Assembly (NCBI GenBank): GCA_030725745.1
Contig: JANRFH010000057.1
Location: 7,037-71,036, forward strand
Reading direction: 5' to 3'
DNA: 64,000 bases
Origin: Akkermansiaceae bacterium
Lineage (GTDB): Bacteria > Verrucomicrobiota > Verrucomicrobiia > Verrucomicrobiales > Akkermansiaceae
The notes below the pieces were generated by a model. The model was not told the origin of the DNA. It did no database searches and saw nothing but the letters and a program-made list of their open reading frames with translations. Both the position numbers and the translations under genes were made by a program. Shown one piece after another: positions 40,793 to 51,673 of this stretch (position 1 is its first letter; each line of letters begins with the position of its first letter).

Positions 40793-41236
40793 TCAGCCCC
40801 AGTCGTCACGACCGCCGCCGCCGCCGCCACCTTTGTAGCCGCCACCGCCACCTTTGTAGCCGCCACCGCCGCCACCGCCACGACGATCACCGCCGCCGCC
40901 TTTGTAGCCGCCGCCACCGCCGCCACGACGATCACCGCCGTAACCACCGCCGCCGCCACCACCGCCACTGCGGAAGCCGCCACCGGAACCTGGTTCCTTG
41001 GGCTCAGATGCATTGACCCGGAGCGCGCGGCCCTGGAAATCCTGTCCATCGAGTGCTTCGATGGCTGTGTTCAGCTGGCTCTGGTCACCAAGGGTGACGA
41101 AAGCAAAACCTTTAGAGCGTCCGGTCTCGCGATCAGTGATGATCTTGACCCGATCTACGGCTCCATATGCGGCGAAAAGATCAGTAACGTCCTCTTCGGT
41201 GGCTGTGTAGGGCAGGTTGCCCACATAAATATCCAT
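40793..41236 (-). CDS. Glycine-rich RRM RNA-binding protein
   Basis: Single-stranded RNA-binding protein, resembling cyanobacterial Rbp and plant cold-inducible glycine-rich proteins. Seen: RRM at residues 1-80 with RNP2 IYVGNLPY and RNP1 KGFAFVTL, then a tail of Gly, Arg, Tyr and Lys with repeated GGGYKGGGG and GGDRRGGGG units. 147 residues. A consensus promoter (41349-41377) and a leader of about 105 bases precede it, as in cold-induced mRNAs; regulation by cold is inference. The repetitive tail may vary between strains by slippage. Confidence 0.92.
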   Translation of the reverse strand: MDIYVGNLPYTATEEDVTDLFAAYGAVDRVKIITDRETGRSKGFAFVTLGDQSQLNTAIEALDGQDFQGRALRVNASEPKEPGSGGGFRSGGGGGGGGYGGDRRGGGGGGYKGGGGDRRGGGGGGGYKGGGGGYKGGGGGGGRDDWG

Positions 41237-42506: not shown

Positions 42507-42547
42507 TGAAGTAAAAGTCCCACATCCTTGCCACCAGTCCAAGAAAA

Positions 42548-42578
42548 AGAGCCGGGAGAATCAACTCCCGGCTCTTGT
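42548..42578 (-). terminator. Terminator of the pilus-like operon
   Basis: AGAGCCGGGAG and CTCCCGGCTCT form a perfect 11-bp stem with the 6-base loop AATCAA; on the minus strand it is followed by TTTTTCTT. It lies 16 bases after the secretin stop. Confidence 0.9.
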
Positions 42579-42593
42579 AGATAATTTTTCGAA

Positions 42594-45185
42594 TCAGTTG
42601 CTAGGCAACTCCTCAAGAGGAGGAAGAAGCGGCGTATCGAAATCGGAAACCGGAATCGTTTCAGTGGTAGCACCACCACGGAGCGGACGACCTGTTGCAT
42701 CGATGATCTGCGGAGTCACGAAGATGATCAGGTTGCTCTTGATACGATTCTCGCCTTTGCTTTGGAAAAGGCGTCCGATGATCGGGATATCCCCGAGGAT
42801 AGGCACCTTGTCCTCAACGTCTTGCACGTCTTCACGCATCAAGCCGCCTACGGCAACGGTGTATCCATCATAGATGGTAAGCGCGGTGTTGACGCTGCGC
42901 TTGGAGAAGACAGGCATCTCGATACGGTTCTCGGTGATGACCGCATTGACGGCATTTCCGAAGATGTCGGTCGATGGTGACTGGATCGGGCTACCGTAGT
43001 TGATGAAGCCTTCGAATTCCACGATTTCCGGGAGGAAACGGAGGTCGATGACGAAATCGTTATCACCAATGGTAGGCTCGATTTCAAGCGTGACACCGGT
43101 GTTCTTCGTTTCGAAGGCGGTAGGTGTAGCTGGCGTAACAGGGAAGCTAGAGCCGCCGGTTGTCAGTCCGGTGCTAATGCCGCCAGTTGCTCCCACGCTG
43201 TTCGGCAGTTCAGGGGGTTCGTATTCGGTTGGGTAGATGAATTCACGGATGACCTCAATAGTCGCCTTCTGGCCGGAACGAGCGGTGACGGAAGGAGCCG
43301 TCATCAGATCGGTTCCTTTTTTCTGAGCGAGTCCGCGCATGATCATCTGGACTTGGCCGTCGGAAAACAGACCCGTAAGACCAAGTATACCTGGAGCTAC
43401 GTTTGCAGTCTGTGCAGTGCGGTTAGGGTTATTGAGGAGAGCGTCAATGCTGTTGCTATTGATGCCATTGTCGCCGCTCCGAAGACCTGCCGTGACGATG
43501 TTGCTGACACTGTCAGTTCCAGCAGGAATACCTGGAATGCTAGTTCCGTTGATAGGACTGACGAAATCGCCTCCGGTACGGGTTGAACCGTTGCCGATCG
43601 TTCCACCTGATCCGAAGAGTGTATTCTTGGAAAGACCGAACGGGGTGACGATCCAGTCGAAACCTAGCTCATCATTATTCTCCTGCGAGATTTCAACGAA
43701 CTTGGTGGTGATCTTCACCTGTTTTGGCTCCTTGCCAATGAGTGCATCCACAAGCTGCTCAAGTTTATCGAGTTCGGAAGGAGTATTGGTTACGATAAGG
43801 CTACCAGACGCACTCAACGTGGCCGAGCTACCTTCATTAAAGGCAATGCCCGCCTGCTTAAGCGAATCGATGATGGGAGGCCGCGCCGTAAGCGTGCTAG
43901 CAGCGCTACCAGATGTTTCGGCAAAGGGATCGGTTTCTCCGCCACCAGTTGTCCCACCTCCTCCGAGGCTGGCTTGGAAGTCTGGCGGAACGCGGAATGT
44001 GCGGGTGAAGAGGTCTTCGCCTGTTTCTGTCTGAGGAACGAGGGTGACTGCAAAGTCATCGACCTTGTAACGAAGCTTAGTCTTGTCGCCGATGTATTTG
44101 AGAGCGACAGCAAGCGGAACGTTGCGAAGTCTCAGTTCATCAATGCGCAGGGCACCTGGATCATTACCACCGAGAAGACCACCGCCACTCGCAGCGGCAT
44201 CGAGGCCTCCGTCTCCCACAGTGCTGCTGCGAGGACGGCGAATGACGAAGTTGACTCCCTTTTTAGCAGGATCCAACTCGAGAGTATCCAATTCTGATGC
44301 ACGGAGGCGAAGGAAATCAATCGCTTCTTCGACAGTCGTGTCTTCGAAATCGATGCTTGGGATGATGATCCTACGTAGTTTTTCGGTGATGTATGCCACA
44401 CCATCGGATGGACCAGTTGAGCCACGTGATGTTGGATCGAAGTTAGGGACGTCTGCAGGAACGGAAAGCTCCCATGCTGCATCCACTTGGCTGAGAAGTG
44501 TGGAACGTGTGTGATCGTAAGCAGCGCGATAGTAATCAGACTTCGCGTTTGCTACTTTTTCCATACCGCGGCGAGCAGCGGAGTTGTATGGGTCGATGCG
44601 AAGCACTGACTCATAATTGCTGAGTGCAGCGTCGTATTTCCCGAGGTCGAAGTTGCCCTGTGCAGTGTAAAGCAAGCGGCGGACTTCATCTACATTCTTC
44701 GCGTGATCGTAGTTGAGAGCCGGGTTGGTGCGGATCGGATCGTCAAGATAGCCGAGTTCTGCCTTAGCTGCGAAATTCTGTGGATCGACGTCCGGTGCAA
44801 GCACGTTGTCGAGGAGGGTTCTTGCTTCGTCGTATTTGCCGAGCTTGCGGAAGTTTTGTGAAAGGGCGACGCTCGCATCACTGAGGTGCTGAGTGTAGCT
44901 AGCGCGACGATCCGCAAGCACCGGGCCTTCTGGCAAGATGCTGAGTGCTCCGCGGAACTTGTCTACCGATGTCTGGTAATCAGCCTTCGCATATGCTTCG
45001 CGACCTTCGCTAAAAAGCGTATCCGCCTCAACGACTGCCTGTTGGCGGCGGATCATTTCCCTCTGAGCAAGGCCGGAATATTCCTGAGCTACTGCGGTGG
45101 TGGGAATGCTGAATGGCATGGTGGCGGCAAGTGCCATCAATACGGTGGCGGTGCGGCTTGTCTGCGAAGGTTGAGTTTTTTGCAT
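42594..45185 (-). CDS. Secretin (Amuc_1098/PilQ-like) with N-terminal TPR
   Basis: Outer-membrane multimeric channel of type IV pilus or type II secretion type. From ATG 45185 there is a signal peptide ending near PTTAVAQ. Residues ~40-220 contain TPR-like helices (NYESVLRIDPYNSAARRGM), then an N-domain (VPLAVALKYIGDKTKLRYKV), a low-complexity Gly/Ser/Thr linker and the secretin core. The core ends with GGLMREDVQDVEDKVPILGD and IPIIGRLFQSK, the classic secretin signature. An ATG at 45251 would add 22 basic residues before the signal peptide. Last gene of the five-gene operon. Confidence 0.9.
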   Translation of the reverse strand: MQKTQPSQTSRTATVLMALAATMPFSIPTTAVAQEYSGLAQREMIRRQQAVVEADTLFSEGREAYAKADYQTSVDKFRGALSILPEGPVLADRRASYTQHLSDASVALSQNFRKLGKYDEARTLLDNVLAPDVDPQNFAAKAELGYLDDPIRTNPALNYDHAKNVDEVRRLLYTAQGNFDLGKYDAALSNYESVLRIDPYNSAARRGMEKVANAKSDYYRAAYDHTRSTLLSQVDAAWELSVPADVPNFDPTSRGSTGPSDGVAYITEKLRRIIIPSIDFEDTTVEEAIDFLRLRASELDTLELDPAKKGVNFVIRRPRSSTVGDGGLDAAASGGGLLGGNDPGALRIDELRLRNVPLAVALKYIGDKTKLRYKVDDFAVTLVPQTETGEDLFTRTFRVPPDFQASLGGGGTTGGGETDPFAETSGSAASTLTARPPIIDSLKQAGIAFNEGSSATLSASGSLIVTNTPSELDKLEQLVDALIGKEPKQVKITTKFVEISQENNDELGFDWIVTPFGLSKNTLFGSGGTIGNGSTRTGGDFVSPINGTSIPGIPAGTDSVSNIVTAGLRSGDNGINSNSIDALLNNPNRTAQTANVAPGILGLTGLFSDGQVQMIMRGLAQKKGTDLMTAPSVTARSGQKATIEVIREFIYPTEYEPPELPNSVGATGGISTGLTTGGSSFPVTPATPTAFETKNTGVTLEIEPTIGDNDFVIDLRFLPEIVEFEGFINYGSPIQSPSTDIFGNAVNAVITENRIEMPVFSKRSVNTALTIYDGYTVAVGGLMREDVQDVEDKVPILGDIPIIGRLFQSKGENRIKSNLIIFVTPQIIDATGRPLRGGATTETIPVSDFDTPLLPPLEELPSN

Positions 45186-45269
45186 AAGAACGTGTGGTTT
45201 TTGGACGGAAAACAAGGATTTGGAAAGAGGTTTTTTGCTGTAACTTGACATTTTAGGTTATTGAGAGGG

Positions 45270-46319
45270 TCAGGGGCCAACTGCTCCTTTGGCTATATTG
45301 AAGCTGGTTTTTTCACCATCTGGTGAAGTTACCTCAACAGTTATGGACTCTGGAGTGACTTTGGTGAGTTTGAAATTCTTCTCCTTGGCCTTTGGTGGCA
45401 GGGCGAATTCGGTATTTTCCTCGATCTTGATTTCCTCACCATTCATGCCCAAAGCTTCGAGGCTGAGGATGGCTGTCCGATCGTATTGGGAAAACTTTGC
45501 AGCATCGCCTTTCCTGAAGCCACCAGGGATCTTATAAATGGTTCCCTTTTTGTTCGGCTTTTGGTCTTCCACACTGACTTCGTTAAATTTGACCTTAGCG
45601 TTGATCTTTTCATCCATGACCTCGCGCTCTTCGTAGCCAAGGTATTTGAAACGATTTTTCATCGGCTCCTCTGCGAAAAGCATCTCTTCGGGTTTAGCTG
45701 GAGCGCCTGCTGTCACCCTATTTCTTCGACCCTCAGTATCGGAGTAATCGAAGGTATAATCTGCTCCCGCAGCAAATCCGGGACGCAATACCCATTGCAG
45801 AGTTTCGTCGCCGATGTAGCTGAGTTTGGTAATCAATGGAGGATATTCCTCACCGTTCATTGGATCAGTTTTTGCGTCGAACTCCTCACGATTGGTGAAG
45901 CCGTCTTCATCCGCATCACGCTGAGGAGAGTCGCCGAAGCCGGGGTCAACACGGTTGTCGATCCACCATTGGTTCGGTATCGGGTCGTGAACCGGGGGCT
46001 CAGCGGGATTACCTAGATCCACCGGATTTGAGGGGTCGTTCTTATTGACAAAAAGCGCGACACCCGTGAACAGATCGACGGGACGCCCCTTATCTTCTCC
46101 CCTCACCCATTCGCGCTGTAGCTGAAATGAAGCTTTCGCGGTGGAAACGGCATCACCATTCGGCACGGATGTATCATTGGAGCCACCTCCTTTGGGTATT
46201 TCGCTGAAGGTTTCCTCGACGGAACCGAGCTTGCTCCAGCCAGCAAATGCAAGGCCGATTGCAGCCACTGCACCAACACCGACGGCAGCCTTTTCGTAAT
46301 TTTCTGAGAACCAGGACAT
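45270..46319 (-). CDS. Amuc_1099-like membrane-anchored protein
   Basis: Component of a pilus-like assembly by position; biochemical role unknown. One N-terminal transmembrane helix (YEKAAVGVGAVAAIGLAFAG) is followed by a periplasmic part. Residues ~133-150 contain DADEDGFTNREEFDAKTDP, an EF-hand/thrombospondin-3-like calcium-binding motif. The C-terminal part is beta-rich (LTKVTPESITVEVTSPDGE). 349 residues. It lies between the secretin and the Amuc_1100-like gene, and its place suggests a PilP-like link between inner membrane and secretin, which is inference. Confidence 0.7.
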   Translation of the reverse strand: MSWFSENYEKAAVGVGAVAAIGLAFAGWSKLGSVEETFSEIPKGGGSNDTSVPNGDAVSTAKASFQLQREWVRGEDKGRPVDLFTGVALFVNKNDPSNPVDLGNPAEPPVHDPIPNQWWIDNRVDPGFGDSPQRDADEDGFTNREEFDAKTDPMNGEEYPPLITKLSYIGDETLQWVLRPGFAAGADYTFDYSDTEGRRNRVTAGAPAKPEEMLFAEEPMKNRFKYLGYEEREVMDEKINAKVKFNEVSVEDQKPNKKGTIYKIPGGFRKGDAAKFSQYDRTAILSLEALGMNGEEIKIEENTEFALPPKAKEKNFKLTKVTPESITVEVTSPDGEKTSFNIAKGAVGP

Positions 46320-46338
46320 GAGTTAAAGCGTTAAAAGA

Positions 46339-47343
46339 TCAGGGTTTAGGAAGTTCTTTGGAAGGAAGAAACATGACGAGATCAAAGCGAACCAAGACGA
46401 TGAGTTCTTCGTTTCCGAGCACCTGGGCGAGGATCCTTGAAGAATCGGCCTCAGGAGCGGCTGGCGTTTCCGGCTCAGCAGGTGCTTCCTCTGGCTCAGC
46501 AGCCGGTTCTTCCGCTAAGCCTTCTTCACCTGGTAGGGTGAAGACGCCGCCGAAAGGGTTATCATCTGCTGTAGTGGCAGGAGCAGTATCTGCAACGGAT
46601 TCGAAGCGGGCATCGCTGATACGAGGCGGTGTATCACGCTCATTCTTAATCTCCACACAGCGGACGACGAAATAGTTATCACCAGTTGTTTTCCCCAGAG
46701 AACTGAGGAACTCACGGACTGAGCCTTCAGAGCCTTTAAATGTGATCTCAAAGCCGAACTCGCGAGCGACATCGTCTTTACCCGGTGCATATGCTCCGCC
46801 GTTTTCTTCAGGCACGGATTCACGGTAGATGCGGATTAGCTTGCTAGGACGTGCTTTCGCCAGCTCCTGCATGGCGCGCGTCATGGCCTCGACTTGATAG
46901 AGCAATACTCCGGTGGCGTTGGAATTTGCAAGTTGCCCCCGGTATTGTTCAAATCCGAGGAAGTAACCTTCGGGAAGCTCGCATCCTGCCGTTTTCAGTT
47001 CGTCTGCCGTTTTCTCTGCCGCCGATTTCAGCTTTCCAGTGAAATCTTGGACGGAAATATTTGTAAGCTCGCTAGGACGGTATGTATCGAACAGCGAACG
47101 GAGTTCGCCGATTTTCCCCACATATTCCGTGAGCTCTTTGTGTTTACCTGCGAGATTCTCATCGCTCGGGTAAGGCTTGAGACTTTCGGCTTTGCTAACA
47201 GCCTGATAGGAGTTCTCAAATTCGTCCTGCGCATTATCGTAGCGAGAGGCACCTCTAGATGCCAAGAAATACAACGCAGCACAGAGCACGAGTGTGCCTC
47301 CTGCTAGGGCGGCGACGAAAGGGTTACTTTTGATCCAATTCAT
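46339..47343 (-). CDS. Amuc_1100-family protein (PilO-like)
   Basis: Relative of Akkermansia Amuc_1100, the abundant membrane protein reported to signal through TLR2. Matching landmarks from memory: LGFEQYR (LGFQVYS there), PSKLIRIYR (LSKFIKVYR), EITFKGSEGSV (EIAFQGDRESV), VEIKNER (IRIRNER) and a C-terminal NEELIVLVRFDLVMF. One N-terminal membrane helix, then a helical region, then a ferredoxin-like alpha/beta part as in PilO. A Glu/Pro/Ala-rich linker lies at about residues 275-310. 334 residues, third in the operon. Immune activity in this organism is not implied. Confidence 0.87.
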   Translation of the reverse strand: MNWIKSNPFVAALAGGTLVLCAALYFLASRGASRYDNAQDEFENSYQAVSKAESLKPYPSDENLAGKHKELTEYVGKIGELRSLFDTYRPSELTNISVQDFTGKLKSAAEKTADELKTAGCELPEGYFLGFEQYRGQLANSNATGVLLYQVEAMTRAMQELAKARPSKLIRIYRESVPEENGGAYAPGKDDVAREFGFEITFKGSEGSVREFLSSLGKTTGDNYFVVRCVEIKNERDTPPRISDARFESVADTAPATTADDNPFGGVFTLPGEEGLAEEPAAEPEEAPAEPETPAAPEADSSRILAQVLGNEELIVLVRFDLVMFLPSKELPKP

Positions 47344-47373
47344 AAATTGCTTAATATCGGTGTTATCGCCGGA

Positions 47374-49224
47374 TCATTTGACCTGCAAGGGACGGGCTAG
47401 GGGCAGAGTGAGTTCAAACGGGAAGGCAAGGTCGCCTTCTTCACCAACGGCGCTGGGGACGAGGATCTGCTCATCTGCTAGGACAACGTCTTTATTATTC
47501 TTATCTTTAACAGTGAAAACGAAGGCTGTGCTGTTTTCTCTCAATCTTTTCAAGAGATCTGAAACAGCATTCTGACTGCGGGGATTTTCACGCCAAAAAC
47601 CACGGATGAGGATAGCGTTTGCTGTCAGTTTGGGTTGAGCTTGTGGCCTATTATTACCTTTTGAATTCCCCTGTTGAGGCGGAGCGGGTGGCCCTGTAAT
47701 AGCGCTACCTGAGAAGGAATCTCCGGTGAAGGCCTGATCTACCACCTTGTTGAATTTTCTGGAGGAAGCAGGGCTATCATTGTCAGCGACAGGGCTGAAA
47801 TCATAGAGTGGTGACATTTCCGTCATCCACACAGCATCACTGGCAAAAGCTCCACGTAATTCGCCGAGCAGATCGAACCAGAGTGCGTGATCCGTCTCGA
47901 TACCCGTATATTGAGAAGCTACGGCGGAGAGTTCCGCTTCTTTTTTGAGCAATGCGCGGATATCAAGTTCGAAAGGGACGAGCACCTCTTTTGTTTCTCC
48001 CATCGTGCGGGCCCTGTCTTCCGCCTTGTTTGCTGCGGAGTTCTGAAGGAAAGCCCATGTGCCGAAGCCGAATACAAGTAGAGCGGCAGCCGCAATGAGG
48101 AAAGGCTTGCGGCGATCCGATGCGCGAGCGATCTCGACAGCGGAAGGCACAAGATCGATGTTGATTGTAGATTTGCCGTTGCCACGTAGGCCGAGGCCAA
48201 TGAGCTCGCCCATGGTGTGGGCATCCTGCTGGATAACTTGAGTATCGACACCCTTGCCGATAGAAACGTGCGCTAGCGGATTGAAATATTCCACCGGGAG
48301 ATTGAGCTTTTCTGCAATAAACTCAAGGGTGTAGGGCAGATTGGCACCTCCACCGGCGAGAAGGATTCTCTTCGGAGCGCTTCCACCGTGCTGGCTGCGG
48401 TAATAATTCGTTGTCCTGGCGATTTCTGCTGGAAGTCGTGTAAGAGCATCGCGGATGACCATGGCGAGAGCGGCGACAGCTTCGTCCATAGTTTCAGTGT
48501 GCCCGCCACCGAGAGCGACGAGGCCGTTGGCGATCTTTTGCTGCTCGGCTTCTTGGAAAGTGATACCATATTCCTTGGCAATGGCGGCGGTGGCAGTAGC
48601 TCCGCCGATGGCGACACTGCGTGTGAAGAACCGACTGCCCTCAACGTAGATCAAGTTGCTGGTCTTTGCACCGACATCGATGATCAGAGTAGGCTCATCA
48701 GGCACTCCGTAGGAATCACGGTAAGCATTGAAGAGTGCCATTGGCGCAACATCTACTTCGATAGTGGCATGTCCCGCCTCGTTGACGGTGTCGTTGGTTT
48801 CTTCAAGTGCATCGCCCTTGATTGCAACGATAACGACCTCTTTTTCGGCAGAGCCTTCGATCATTTCGTAATCCCACGCCACCTCATTGATGGGGAAAGG
48901 AACATGTTGCTGTGCCTCGAAGGTCACCAACTGCTCAATGTTGTCGTCCTGAATAGGAGGGAGTTTGACGAAACGGATGAAAGCCGCCTGACCCGAAATT
49001 GCGTATCGCAGCTTCGATTTTGGAACCTTGAGTTTCGCTCCGAGATCCTCGATGGAAGCCCTGATCTGAGCCTCGCGGGAGGCTTCAAAGGTGGGATCCG
49101 CGACAATCGTGTCGGTTTCGTATCCCTTCAGGATGAGACCGCCGCTTTTCGAGGTTTCGAAAACGGCCATGCCTATGCGCTGGGAGCCTATGTTGAGTGC
49201 GACGGTGGTATGGGTATCAGCCAT
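47374..49224 (-). CDS. pilM: PilM-like ATPase fused to a PilN-like domain
   Basis: Cytoplasmic actin-like protein that anchors the pilus alignment complex. Residues 1-350 are PilM: start VALNIGSQRIGMAVFE, FVKLPPIQDDNIEQLVTFEA, the phosphate-binding IIDVGAKTSNLIYVEG and LLAGGGANLPYTLEF. About residues 375-405 form a membrane helix (RRKPFLIAAAALLVFGFGTW). The remaining ~200 residues look like PilN (helix then alpha/beta, with AILIRGFW). Usual PilM is ~350 residues, so this 616-residue protein joins PilM and PilN. Second gene of the operon; corresponds to Amuc_1101. Confidence 0.88.
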   Translation of the reverse strand: MADTHTTVALNIGSQRIGMAVFETSKSGGLILKGYETDTIVADPTFEASREAQIRASIEDLGAKLKVPKSKLRYAISGQAAFIRFVKLPPIQDDNIEQLVTFEAQQHVPFPINEVAWDYEMIEGSAEKEVVIVAIKGDALEETNDTVNEAGHATIEVDVAPMALFNAYRDSYGVPDEPTLIIDVGAKTSNLIYVEGSRFFTRSVAIGGATATAAIAKEYGITFQEAEQQKIANGLVALGGGHTETMDEAVAALAMVIRDALTRLPAEIARTTNYYRSQHGGSAPKRILLAGGGANLPYTLEFIAEKLNLPVEYFNPLAHVSIGKGVDTQVIQQDAHTMGELIGLGLRGNGKSTINIDLVPSAVEIARASDRRKPFLIAAAALLVFGFGTWAFLQNSAANKAEDRARTMGETKEVLVPFELDIRALLKKEAELSAVASQYTGIETDHALWFDLLGELRGAFASDAVWMTEMSPLYDFSPVADNDSPASSRKFNKVVDQAFTGDSFSGSAITGPPAPPQQGNSKGNNRPQAQPKLTANAILIRGFWRENPRSQNAVSDLLKRLRENSTAFVFTVKDKNNKDVVLADEQILVPSAVGEEGDLAFPFELTLPLARPLQVK

Positions 49225-49288
49225 GATGTGTGATCAATCGGTAAAATTTTTCGGGAAAACCCCAGGAGAGAGAAGCTTTTGCAGAGGA

Positions 49289-49915
49289 TCAGCGGCGTTC
49301 GACTTGGATCTCTGCATAACGATCCCACCAGTGGTTTGCGAAGGGTGTCTCCATTTTATTGAGAAGAGGCACCGAGTCGTTACGGGAAATTTTATCCGAA
49401 GATGCGTTCCACCAGCCATCAGCAAATTTCGTCGTGCCCTTTGCTTGCAGCTGTCCGTTAACCAAAACTTCATAGCCAACAGCCTCTACGGCACCCTTAC
49501 CTCCACGGTCAGATCCGGTGAGACGCTTCAGTGAGGCAGGCGAAAGATAAACAGAGACGAAAATCTCTTCCTTGAGAGGGATGTTCACATGAGTGACGTC
49601 TTTTGTCAGAAGATGCATCGTGCCAGGCTTTTCTGTATTTTTCACAGCGATATACCATTTCACCAAGATGCTGTCGGCCGTTTGCGAATTTGGCTCAGGC
49701 GACATCTGCACGGTCAGAGGCATTTCGATTTCCAGCCAATCCTTCGGCTTGAAAGATTTTTGTTTCCCTCCGCTGTATTCAGGAGATTGGAGATCATCGA
49801 ATGTCGGCTCCTCGGCCTCGACCTTGTAGGCTTGAGCTGCGGCGAAGTCATTGGCCATCAAGCTGATGGCAACACAGGCGATGGCGGAAAAAAGAGAAAT
49901 TTTGTGGGTTCGCAT
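49289..49915 (-). CDS. Exported Amuc_1102-like protein
   Basis: First gene of the pilus-like operon. A signal peptide (SLFSAIACVAISLMANDFAA then AQAYKVE) precedes a single compact beta-rich domain with LEIEMPLTVQM, ILVKWYIAVKN and YEVLVNGQLQAKG, consistent with an Ig-like fold. Its C-terminus is basic and aromatic (HWWDRYAEIQVERR). 208 residues. The position and size correspond to Amuc_1102 of Akkermansia; function unknown. Confidence 0.75.
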   Translation of the reverse strand: MRTHKISLFSAIACVAISLMANDFAAAQAYKVEAEEPTFDDLQSPEYSGGKQKSFKPKDWLEIEMPLTVQMSPEPNSQTADSILVKWYIAVKNTEKPGTMHLLTKDVTHVNIPLKEEIFVSVYLSPASLKRLTGSDRGGKGAVEAVGYEVLVNGQLQAKGTTKFADGWWNASSDKISRNDSVPLLNKMETPFANHWWDRYAEIQVERR

Positions 49916-50023: not shown

Positions 50024-50052
50024 TTGACAAGCCATTGACGGAAGCCTGTAGA
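50024..50052 (+). promoter_or_regulatory. Possible promoter of aroD-aroE
   Basis: A consensus TTGACA at 50024-50029 is 17 bp from TGTAGA (50047-50052), a weak -10. It leaves a short leader before the ATG at 50071. The pilus-like operon starts divergently 156 bp away. Confidence 0.4.
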
Positions 50053-50070
50053 CGGCGCTTCATACTGCCT

Positions 50071-50784
50071 ATGCCGAAAGCGCCTTTTTCATTTCCCAAC
50101 AGCAGCCCCCTTGTAGTGGGAAGCATCGGCGATGCAGATACCCTAGCAGCCGCCACCCCCGAATCTCTTGCCAAGGAATGCGATATTGCAGAGATCAGAC
50201 TGGATCTTCTGCACCGCGAATTTTTCACAAGCGGCGCGGCGCTATGGCAGCACCTGCTTCCATTTCCTCTTTTGTTCACCGCACGCTGCCATTCCGAGGG
50301 CTCTCCCTTCGACCTCGATTTGGAAACGCGTATCCGCATGCTCACCACAGCACTGCCGGATGCCAGCCTGATCGATATCGAGGCGATGAGCGCCTCTGCA
50401 ATGGGTGAATTGGTTAGAGAGATCATTTCGAAAGATATCCCTTGGGTCGCCTCTTACCATGATTTCCTCCGCCTACCTTCACGCATGAAACTCGATACCC
50501 ACGCAGAGATCGCACGAGAAGCCGGAGCCACCGCATTCAAGGCAGCCGCGCGCATGCAGACACCTGCAGACATTACCGAACTCGCCTCCTTTCAGATGAG
50601 TGATGTGGGTATCCCACTAGCCACGATGGGTATGGGGGATCTTGCTCCGGTTTCGCGCCTGCTTTGCGCACAGGTAGGCAGCGTCCTAAACTACGGATAT
50701 ATAGGCGAAAAGGAAACTGCCCCAGGCCAATGGTCAGCCTCGCGCCTCCGAGAATGTATCCGCTCGCTGAAACCCATCCGCTGA
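50071..50784 (+). CDS. aroD: Type I 3-dehydroquinate dehydratase
   Basis: Third step of the shikimate pathway, via a Schiff base. Seen: E41 in AEIRLDLL, H130 in VASYHDFLR and the Schiff-base lysine K157 in GATAFKAAARM; the end (LNYGYIGEKETAPGQWSA) also fits. ATG 50071 (MPKAPFSF) gives 237 residues, normal for the family; an upstream TTG would add 12. aroE follows after one base, so the two are translationally coupled and give consecutive pathway steps. Confidence 0.95.
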   Translation: MPKAPFSFPNSSPLVVGSIGDADTLAAATPESLAKECDIAEIRLDLLHREFFTSGAALWQHLLPFPLLFTARCHSEGSPFDLDLETRIRMLTTALPDASLIDIEAMSASAMGELVREIISKDIPWVASYHDFLRLPSRMKLDTHAEIAREAGATAFKAAARMQTPADITELASFQMSDVGIPLATMGMGDLAPVSRLLCAQVGSVLNYGYIGEKETAPGQWSASRLRECIRSLKPIR

Positions 50785-50785
50785 A

Positions 50786-51673
50786 ATGCATCACGTCTAT
50801 ACCCTAGAAAACCTGGAAGAAGCGACGAGCTGTGGAAAACCCGCACGACTCGCCGTGATCGGAAATCCCATTTCCCATTCATCGTCCCCCCAGCTCCACC
50901 AACCGGCACTCGATGCCTTCGGAAAAGAAGCCCGCTACATCCGCCTGCTAGTCGAGCCGGGAATGGTCGCAGAAGCCTTCGCAAAGATGACGCAGCTCGG
51001 CTTCATCGGATGCAACGTGACAGTCCCCCACAAGATCGAGGCAATGGAAGCCTGCGGAGAGGTATCCGAACAGGCACGACAAATAGGAGCGGTCAACACC
51101 GTGGTTTTCTCAGAAAATGAAATTCACGGATACAATACCGACGGGCCCGGATTCATGCAGGCGGTCTCGGATGATTTCGGGATCGCATTGGGGGAAAATC
51201 ATACGCTAATCCTCGGAGCAGGCGGCGGCGCGGGGCAGGCGATAGCCACTCAATGCGCTCTCTTAAAACCCGTACAACTCACCTTGATCAACCGTAGCTT
51301 AGACAAAATCACCGATCTAGCCGAGCGCCTCCGTGACATATCTCCTGAGACAGAAATCACCACACTCGCCTTCGGCGATCCCGGACTCATCGCTGCATGC
51401 CATTCCGCTGATCTACTTGTCCAGACAACCTCACTCGGCCTGAAACAGGACGATCCGGAGGTAATCCCTTCCGAGTGCTTCCAGTCCCACCACTGTGTCT
51501 ACGATACGATCTACCAACCTCCGGAAACGCATTTCCTGAAAGCAGCTAGAAATTACGGATGCAAAACCGGCAATGGCCTCAGCATGCTCATCCACCAAGG
51601 AGCCATCGCTTTTCAACATTGGTTTCCAGAAACCGATCCGCTGTCACTGATGAAAGCCGCCATGAAAGGATAA
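50786..51673 (+). CDS. aroE: Shikimate dehydrogenase
   Basis: NADPH-dependent reduction of 3-dehydroshikimate. Seen: LAVIGNPISHSSSPQLHQPA with the substrate-binding serines, the catalytic lysine in NVTVPHK (K83), the aspartate in YNTDGPGF and the NADP loop LGAGGGAGQA. 295 residues, slightly long because of an N-terminal 20-residue extension. It starts one base after the aroD stop. Confidence 0.96.
   Translation: MHHVYTLENLEEATSCGKPARLAVIGNPISHSSSPQLHQPALDAFGKEARYIRLLVEPGMVAEAFAKMTQLGFIGCNVTVPHKIEAMEACGEVSEQARQIGAVNTVVFSENEIHGYNTDGPGFMQAVSDDFGIALGENHTLILGAGGGAGQAIATQCALLKPVQLTLINRSLDKITDLAERLRDISPETEITTLAFGDPGLIAACHSADLLVQTTSLGLKQDDPEVIPSECFQSHHCVYDTIYQPPETHFLKAARNYGCKTGNGLSMLIHQGAIAFQHWFPETDPLSLMKAAMKG

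Follow-up and report, generated by a model that had tools for sequence, protein, structure and literature searches.

Amuc_1100 of Akkermansia muciniphila is well known as a TLR2-active protein and a probiotic candidate, and Amuc_1102 is called pilin-like in the literature. The operon that encodes both, Amuc_1098-1102 or MUL2, has been described as a locus for mucin utilisation, with a proposed part in attachment and uptake (PMC13174399). That MUL2 is syntenic in Akkermansiaceae and also occurs frequently in other Verrucomicrobiales has already been published (Wilkie 2026, PMC13174399), and the Amuc_1098 secretin has been located in the outer membrane (PMC4960237).

The locus described here lies in a 64,000-nucleotide stretch of DNA (the window) from an Akkermansiaceae bacterium with a 3.42 Mb genome in 57 contigs, in which family searches were run genome-wide. 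It is the known MUL2 operon of Akkermansia in the ordinary form that Verrucomicrobiales have throughout the order. Its products probably make up two parts of a type IV pilus machine, the alignment subcomplex and the channel in the outer membrane; they would be a diverged pilMNOPQ set whose motors and pilin are encoded elsewhere in the genome. What our analysis adds is a putative assignment of PilN and PilP, a candidate motor proposed from co-occurrence, and doubt as to whether Amuc_1102 is a pilin.

An operon with the content and order of MUL2

Open reading frame calling in the window gives five minus-strand genes, which run from position 49915 down to 42594 in the order Amuc_1102-, 1101-, 1100-, 1099- and 1098-like. 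All five match the A. muciniphila operon in kind and order, as the preliminary description had held. The intergenic gaps are, from first to last, 64, 30, 19 and 18 bp. The secretin may instead start at an internal ATG (45185); the last gap would then be 84 bp, which accounts for the earlier range of 19-85 bp. The strong terminator reported after the secretin is present immediately past the stop codon (42547..42576, minus strand), as a 12-pair stem with eight GC pairs and a T tail.

The genome used for comparison, from Akkermansia, is 2,664,102 bp long, and over 287 residues its Amuc_1100 does not differ from the crystallised protein. Identities to the counterparts in this genome, calculated over the aligned parts only, are 42, 39, 26, 30 and 46% for genes 1 to 5.

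Upstream of the operon and divergent from it lie aroD (50035-50784, plus strand; PF01487, E 2.7e-31) and aroE (50786-51673, plus strand; PF08501, E 1.5e-24), which are kept neighbours and not part of the machine. The window thus carries the same 3-dehydroquinate dehydratase gene that is named among the neighbours of MUL2 (PMC13174399), and aroD adjoins the operon in most Akkermansiaceae loci outside Akkermansia. The hofMNOPQ genes of Escherichia coli adjoin aroK-aroB; pilus alignment and shikimate genes are neighbours in two distant phyla. On the other side of the operon, an ORF at 40793-41236 resembles a gene for a small RNA-binding protein of the RRM type, with a long tail that is repetitive and rich in glycine.

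The operon is widely distributed in the order. The PilM-N protein encoded by gene 2 is present in 112 of 114 Verrucomicrobiales genomes (31/32 genera), and the Amuc_1100-like gene was detected in 98 of the 114 (30/32 genera); with these counts and the published synteny (PMC13174399), an extension of the family to another genus, as suggested earlier for the Amuc_1100-like member, brings nothing new. A scan of genome_contigs returned at least 566 relatives, and the five-gene order on one strand was found in all 56 complete loci among the matches listed, as well as in 40/40 fetched loci from five families. Ten small genomes of the genus Akkermansia seemed to lack the operon when queried with Amuc_1100. 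Nine of them contain a PilM-N match, and their apparent lack is explained by the divergence of the Amuc_1100 query; in the tenth (G110), neither the Amuc_1100 nor the PilM-N query matched.

Gene 2 joins PilM to a putative PilN

Gene 2 (Amuc_1101-like, MUL2B; 47374..49224, minus strand; 616 aa) begins with a PilM domain (48178..49224, minus strand), in which residues 11-348 match PilM_2 (PF11104, E 5.9e-33). This is the sole PF11104 match in the genome. The last 270 residues (47374..48177, minus strand) contain an IDLVP motif, a transmembrane segment at residues 373-394, a long helix and a ferredoxin-like domain. A family profile of this C-terminal part matches PilN of the Myxococcus xanthus pilus model 3jc8 (E 1.4e-4), the sole match below 0.2. 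The top matches of its predicted fold are the periplasmic domains of XcpY/GspL (Z 7.3) and PilO (Z 7.2); a Z of about 7 is supportive, if middling when taken alone. The Pfam PilN model went unmatched in a Pfam scan of this PilN-like family, including the window member, and comparison with E. coli HofN was weak (E 0.006). The profile match, with the fold in line, points to PilN as the identity of the C-terminal part. The fusion is kept in 115 of 117 relatives.

Genes 3 to 5 and the proposed path to the outer membrane

Gene 3 (Amuc_1100-like; 46339..47343, minus strand; 334 aa) occupies the PilO position. It matches the solved Amuc_1100 structures (6kny/6lad, E 1.7e-14; family profile, E 3.7e-47) and has a single N-terminal transmembrane segment at residues 6-30. 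The Amuc_1100 family profile found no PilO chain, and comparison with E. coli HofO gave no signal. We therefore infer the equivalence of Amuc_1100-like proteins and PilO from position and general fold only. At about 26% identity to Amuc_1100, immune activity of the gene 3 product cannot be inferred.

Gene 4 (Amuc_1099-like; 45270..46319, minus strand; 349 aa) also has an N-terminal transmembrane segment. The best match of its model (pLDDT 88.8) is the PilP chain 3jc8_Pa (Z 8.7, rmsd 2.1, 72 residues aligned), and the next row scores 6.0. No sequence-level match to PilP was found, comparison with E. coli HofP gave no signal, and no Foldseek match by itself reached an E below 0.001, either for this model or for that of the gene 2 C-terminal part. 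On the strength of the modelled fold, gene 4 probably encodes a PilP-like periplasmic subunit. It also carries a calcium-loop-like motif, DxDxDGFxNxEE (45882..45917, minus strand), which occurs in 92 of 105 relatives and is missing in Akkermansia loci; residues D135, D137, D139 and E146 are invariant in A3.

Gene 5 (Amuc_1098-like; 42594..45251, minus strand; 885 aa) encodes a PilQ secretin (PF00263, E 5.2e-32) with N-terminal TPR matches. Elsewhere the genome encodes another secretin of the Amuc_1098 type (L037:7566-10022; C57, about 226 kb), which shares 43% identity with that of the window. Its gene adjoins one for a 518-aa protein without a Pfam match (L037:5985-7541), and the two stand together in two further genomes that were examined, one of them from the genus Akkermansia, each with only one PilM.

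Gene 1 lacks the signal of a type IV pilin

The family profile of gene 1 (Amuc_1102-like, MUL2A; 49289..49915, minus strand; 208 aa) matches the Amuc_1102 structure 7DSZ (E 4.4e-52). A type IV pilin would be expected to combine a class III prepilin signal with an N-terminal hydrophobic helix, and gene 1 was rejected as a pilin by this test: the class III motif was found in 0 of 119 relatives, as against 6/6 genomes for the PilC-linked pilin that served as control. A crude search detected a signal-peptidase-I-like signal in 109 of the 119, and the window member has one as well. Judged by its signal, gene 1 most likely encodes a periplasmic accessory subunit rather than a pilin, and the protein encoded beside PilC is the likely pilin.

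Motors and pilin are encoded on other contigs

The preliminary description had placed the operon outside a recognised pilus cluster and listed no PilA, PilB or PilT. For the window this holds: it contains no match to PF00437 (PilB/PilT), PF00482 (PilC) or PF07963 (prepilin). It fails for the genome, in which motors, pilin and prepilin peptidase lie on other contigs, the same layout as in Akkermansia. The search for pilB, pilC and pilin beyond the window found two tandem PilB genes followed by PilC and a pilin (PilB1-PilB2-PilC-pilin) on C9, another PilB-PilC on C41, and a pair of PilT genes on each of C36 and C51. There is also a partial match to a prepilin peptidase (E 3.8e-7), again away from the contig of the window. 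An orphan operon without motors is thereby ruled out.

The PilC-linked pilin is GspG-like, with a T2SSG match, and has the class III motif in 6/6 genomes. Its linkage with PilB1, PilB2 and PilC recurs in five other genomes, with ATPases that are 60-85% identical. The tandem PilB paralogues (L008:7378-10853), which precede PilC here and in five other genomes, are 42% identical to each other, so extension may be driven by a mixed ATPase made of both.

On C47 the genome also contains a T2SS-like locus apart from the operon, which has GspK, pseudopilins and a secretin of its own; over 377 aa, the window secretin shares 24% identity with the T2SS-type secretin, and it is this other locus, not the operon, that has pseudopilins linked to it. 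In 17/17 genomes, unpaired PilB proteins of full length (>425 bits) are as numerous as T2SS-type secretins (>139 bits), with cut-offs set after inspection of the table and in genomes that are few and related. In the two genomes checked, no more than 10 kb separates the unpaired PilB from the T2SS-type secretin. In the genus Akkermansia, six complete genomes each contain two secretins, a single PilC, one tandem pair of PilB and one pair of PilT; no third PilB or T2SS-type secretin was found in them, so the tandem PilB/PilC set is the only motor available there. Since the third PilB tracks the T2SS, the tandem PilB-PilC set would, by elimination and co-occurrence, serve the window operon.

A probable dispersed type IV pilus

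These results sharpen the earlier reading of an alignment complex with a secretin into a diverged pilMNOPQ, in which PilM, PilN and the secretin are recognised by sequence and PilP by its model. In such a machine, the PilM domain would lie in the cytoplasm, and the fused PilN tail would span the inner membrane. The periplasmic bridge to the secretin with its TPRs would be formed by the homologues of Amuc_1100 (PilO-like) and Amuc_1099 (PilP-like). The tandem PilB ATPases and PilC would extend the GspG-like pilin encoded beside PilC, and the PilT pair would retract the filament. The filament would probably attach the cell to surfaces rich in polysaccharide, the role put forward for MUL2.

The earlier suggestion of surface protein export corresponds to a secretion machine like that of type II, in which the GspG-like protein encoded beside PilC would be a pseudopilin. 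Such a machine would account for the GspL architecture of the PilM-PilN fusion, for the match of the gene 2 C-terminal model to the periplasmic domains of XcpY and EpsL, and for the T2SSG match of the PilC-linked pilin. However, the families matched are PilM_2, PilN and PilP rather than those of the T2SS, Akkermansia keeps a PilT pair alongside the operon, and export is ruled out as the main reading by the distinct T2SS-like locus, which has GspK, pseudopilins and a secretin of its own, and by a third PilB that follows the T2SS-type secretin in number; we regard such a machine as unlikely. A static trans-envelope scaffold or glycan-uptake port that needs no filament would suit the reported mucin utilisation, attachment and uptake of MUL2 (PMC13174399) and a gene 1 that is not a pilin by its signal, but it is very improbable given that the Akkermansia genomes examined keep motors, platform protein and pilin with no other T4P or T2SS set left to use them.

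The dispersed type IV pilus thus remains the probable reading, and the operon, rather than an orphan envelope machine, would represent its alignment half across Verrucomicrobiales. A fuller statement, to which we give an even chance, is that MUL2 is a complete pilMNOPQ in rewired form: PilM and PilN make a single protein order-wide, the PilP-like subunit usually carries the calcium-loop motif, Amuc_1102 is a periplasmic accessory and not the pilin, Amuc_1100 is PilO, and the motor consists of tandem PilB paralogues. These statements were not found in the literature searched, which did not include the paper that describes MUL1/MUL2 in A. muciniphila. If the assignments are true, Amuc_1100 works as a PilO in the inner membrane and its immune activity is a by-product of that role, and work on the Akkermansia pilin should turn from Amuc_1102 to the protein encoded next to PilC.

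Comparison with known systems

The closest system is MUL2 of A. muciniphila, which has the same five genes in the same order and on one strand, every protein homologous, and motor genes likewise dispersed. The window operon differs from it in sequence (26-46% identity), in the aroD/aroE flanks and in the intact DxDxDG loop of gene 4, which Akkermansia lacks. With type IVa pilMNOPQ and E. coli hofMNOPQ it shares the order M-N-O-P-Q with the secretin last. Shikimate-pathway genes adjoin both the E. coli and the window operon, in the latter as the upstream, divergent aroD/aroE. Unlike type IVa pilMNOPQ, the window operon has PilM and PilN fused, an extra first gene, and N, O and P components too diverged for Pfam. 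As in Pseudomonas, whose pilMNOPQ motors are encoded elsewhere, the operon stands apart from its motors. With the GspL-GspM-GspC-GspD set of the T2SS it shares a GspL-like gene 2, in which an actin-like domain is fused to a transmembrane segment and a ferredoxin-like domain; its sequence and fold matches are nevertheless to PilM, PilN and PilP, and the T2SS-like locus of this genome is a separate one.
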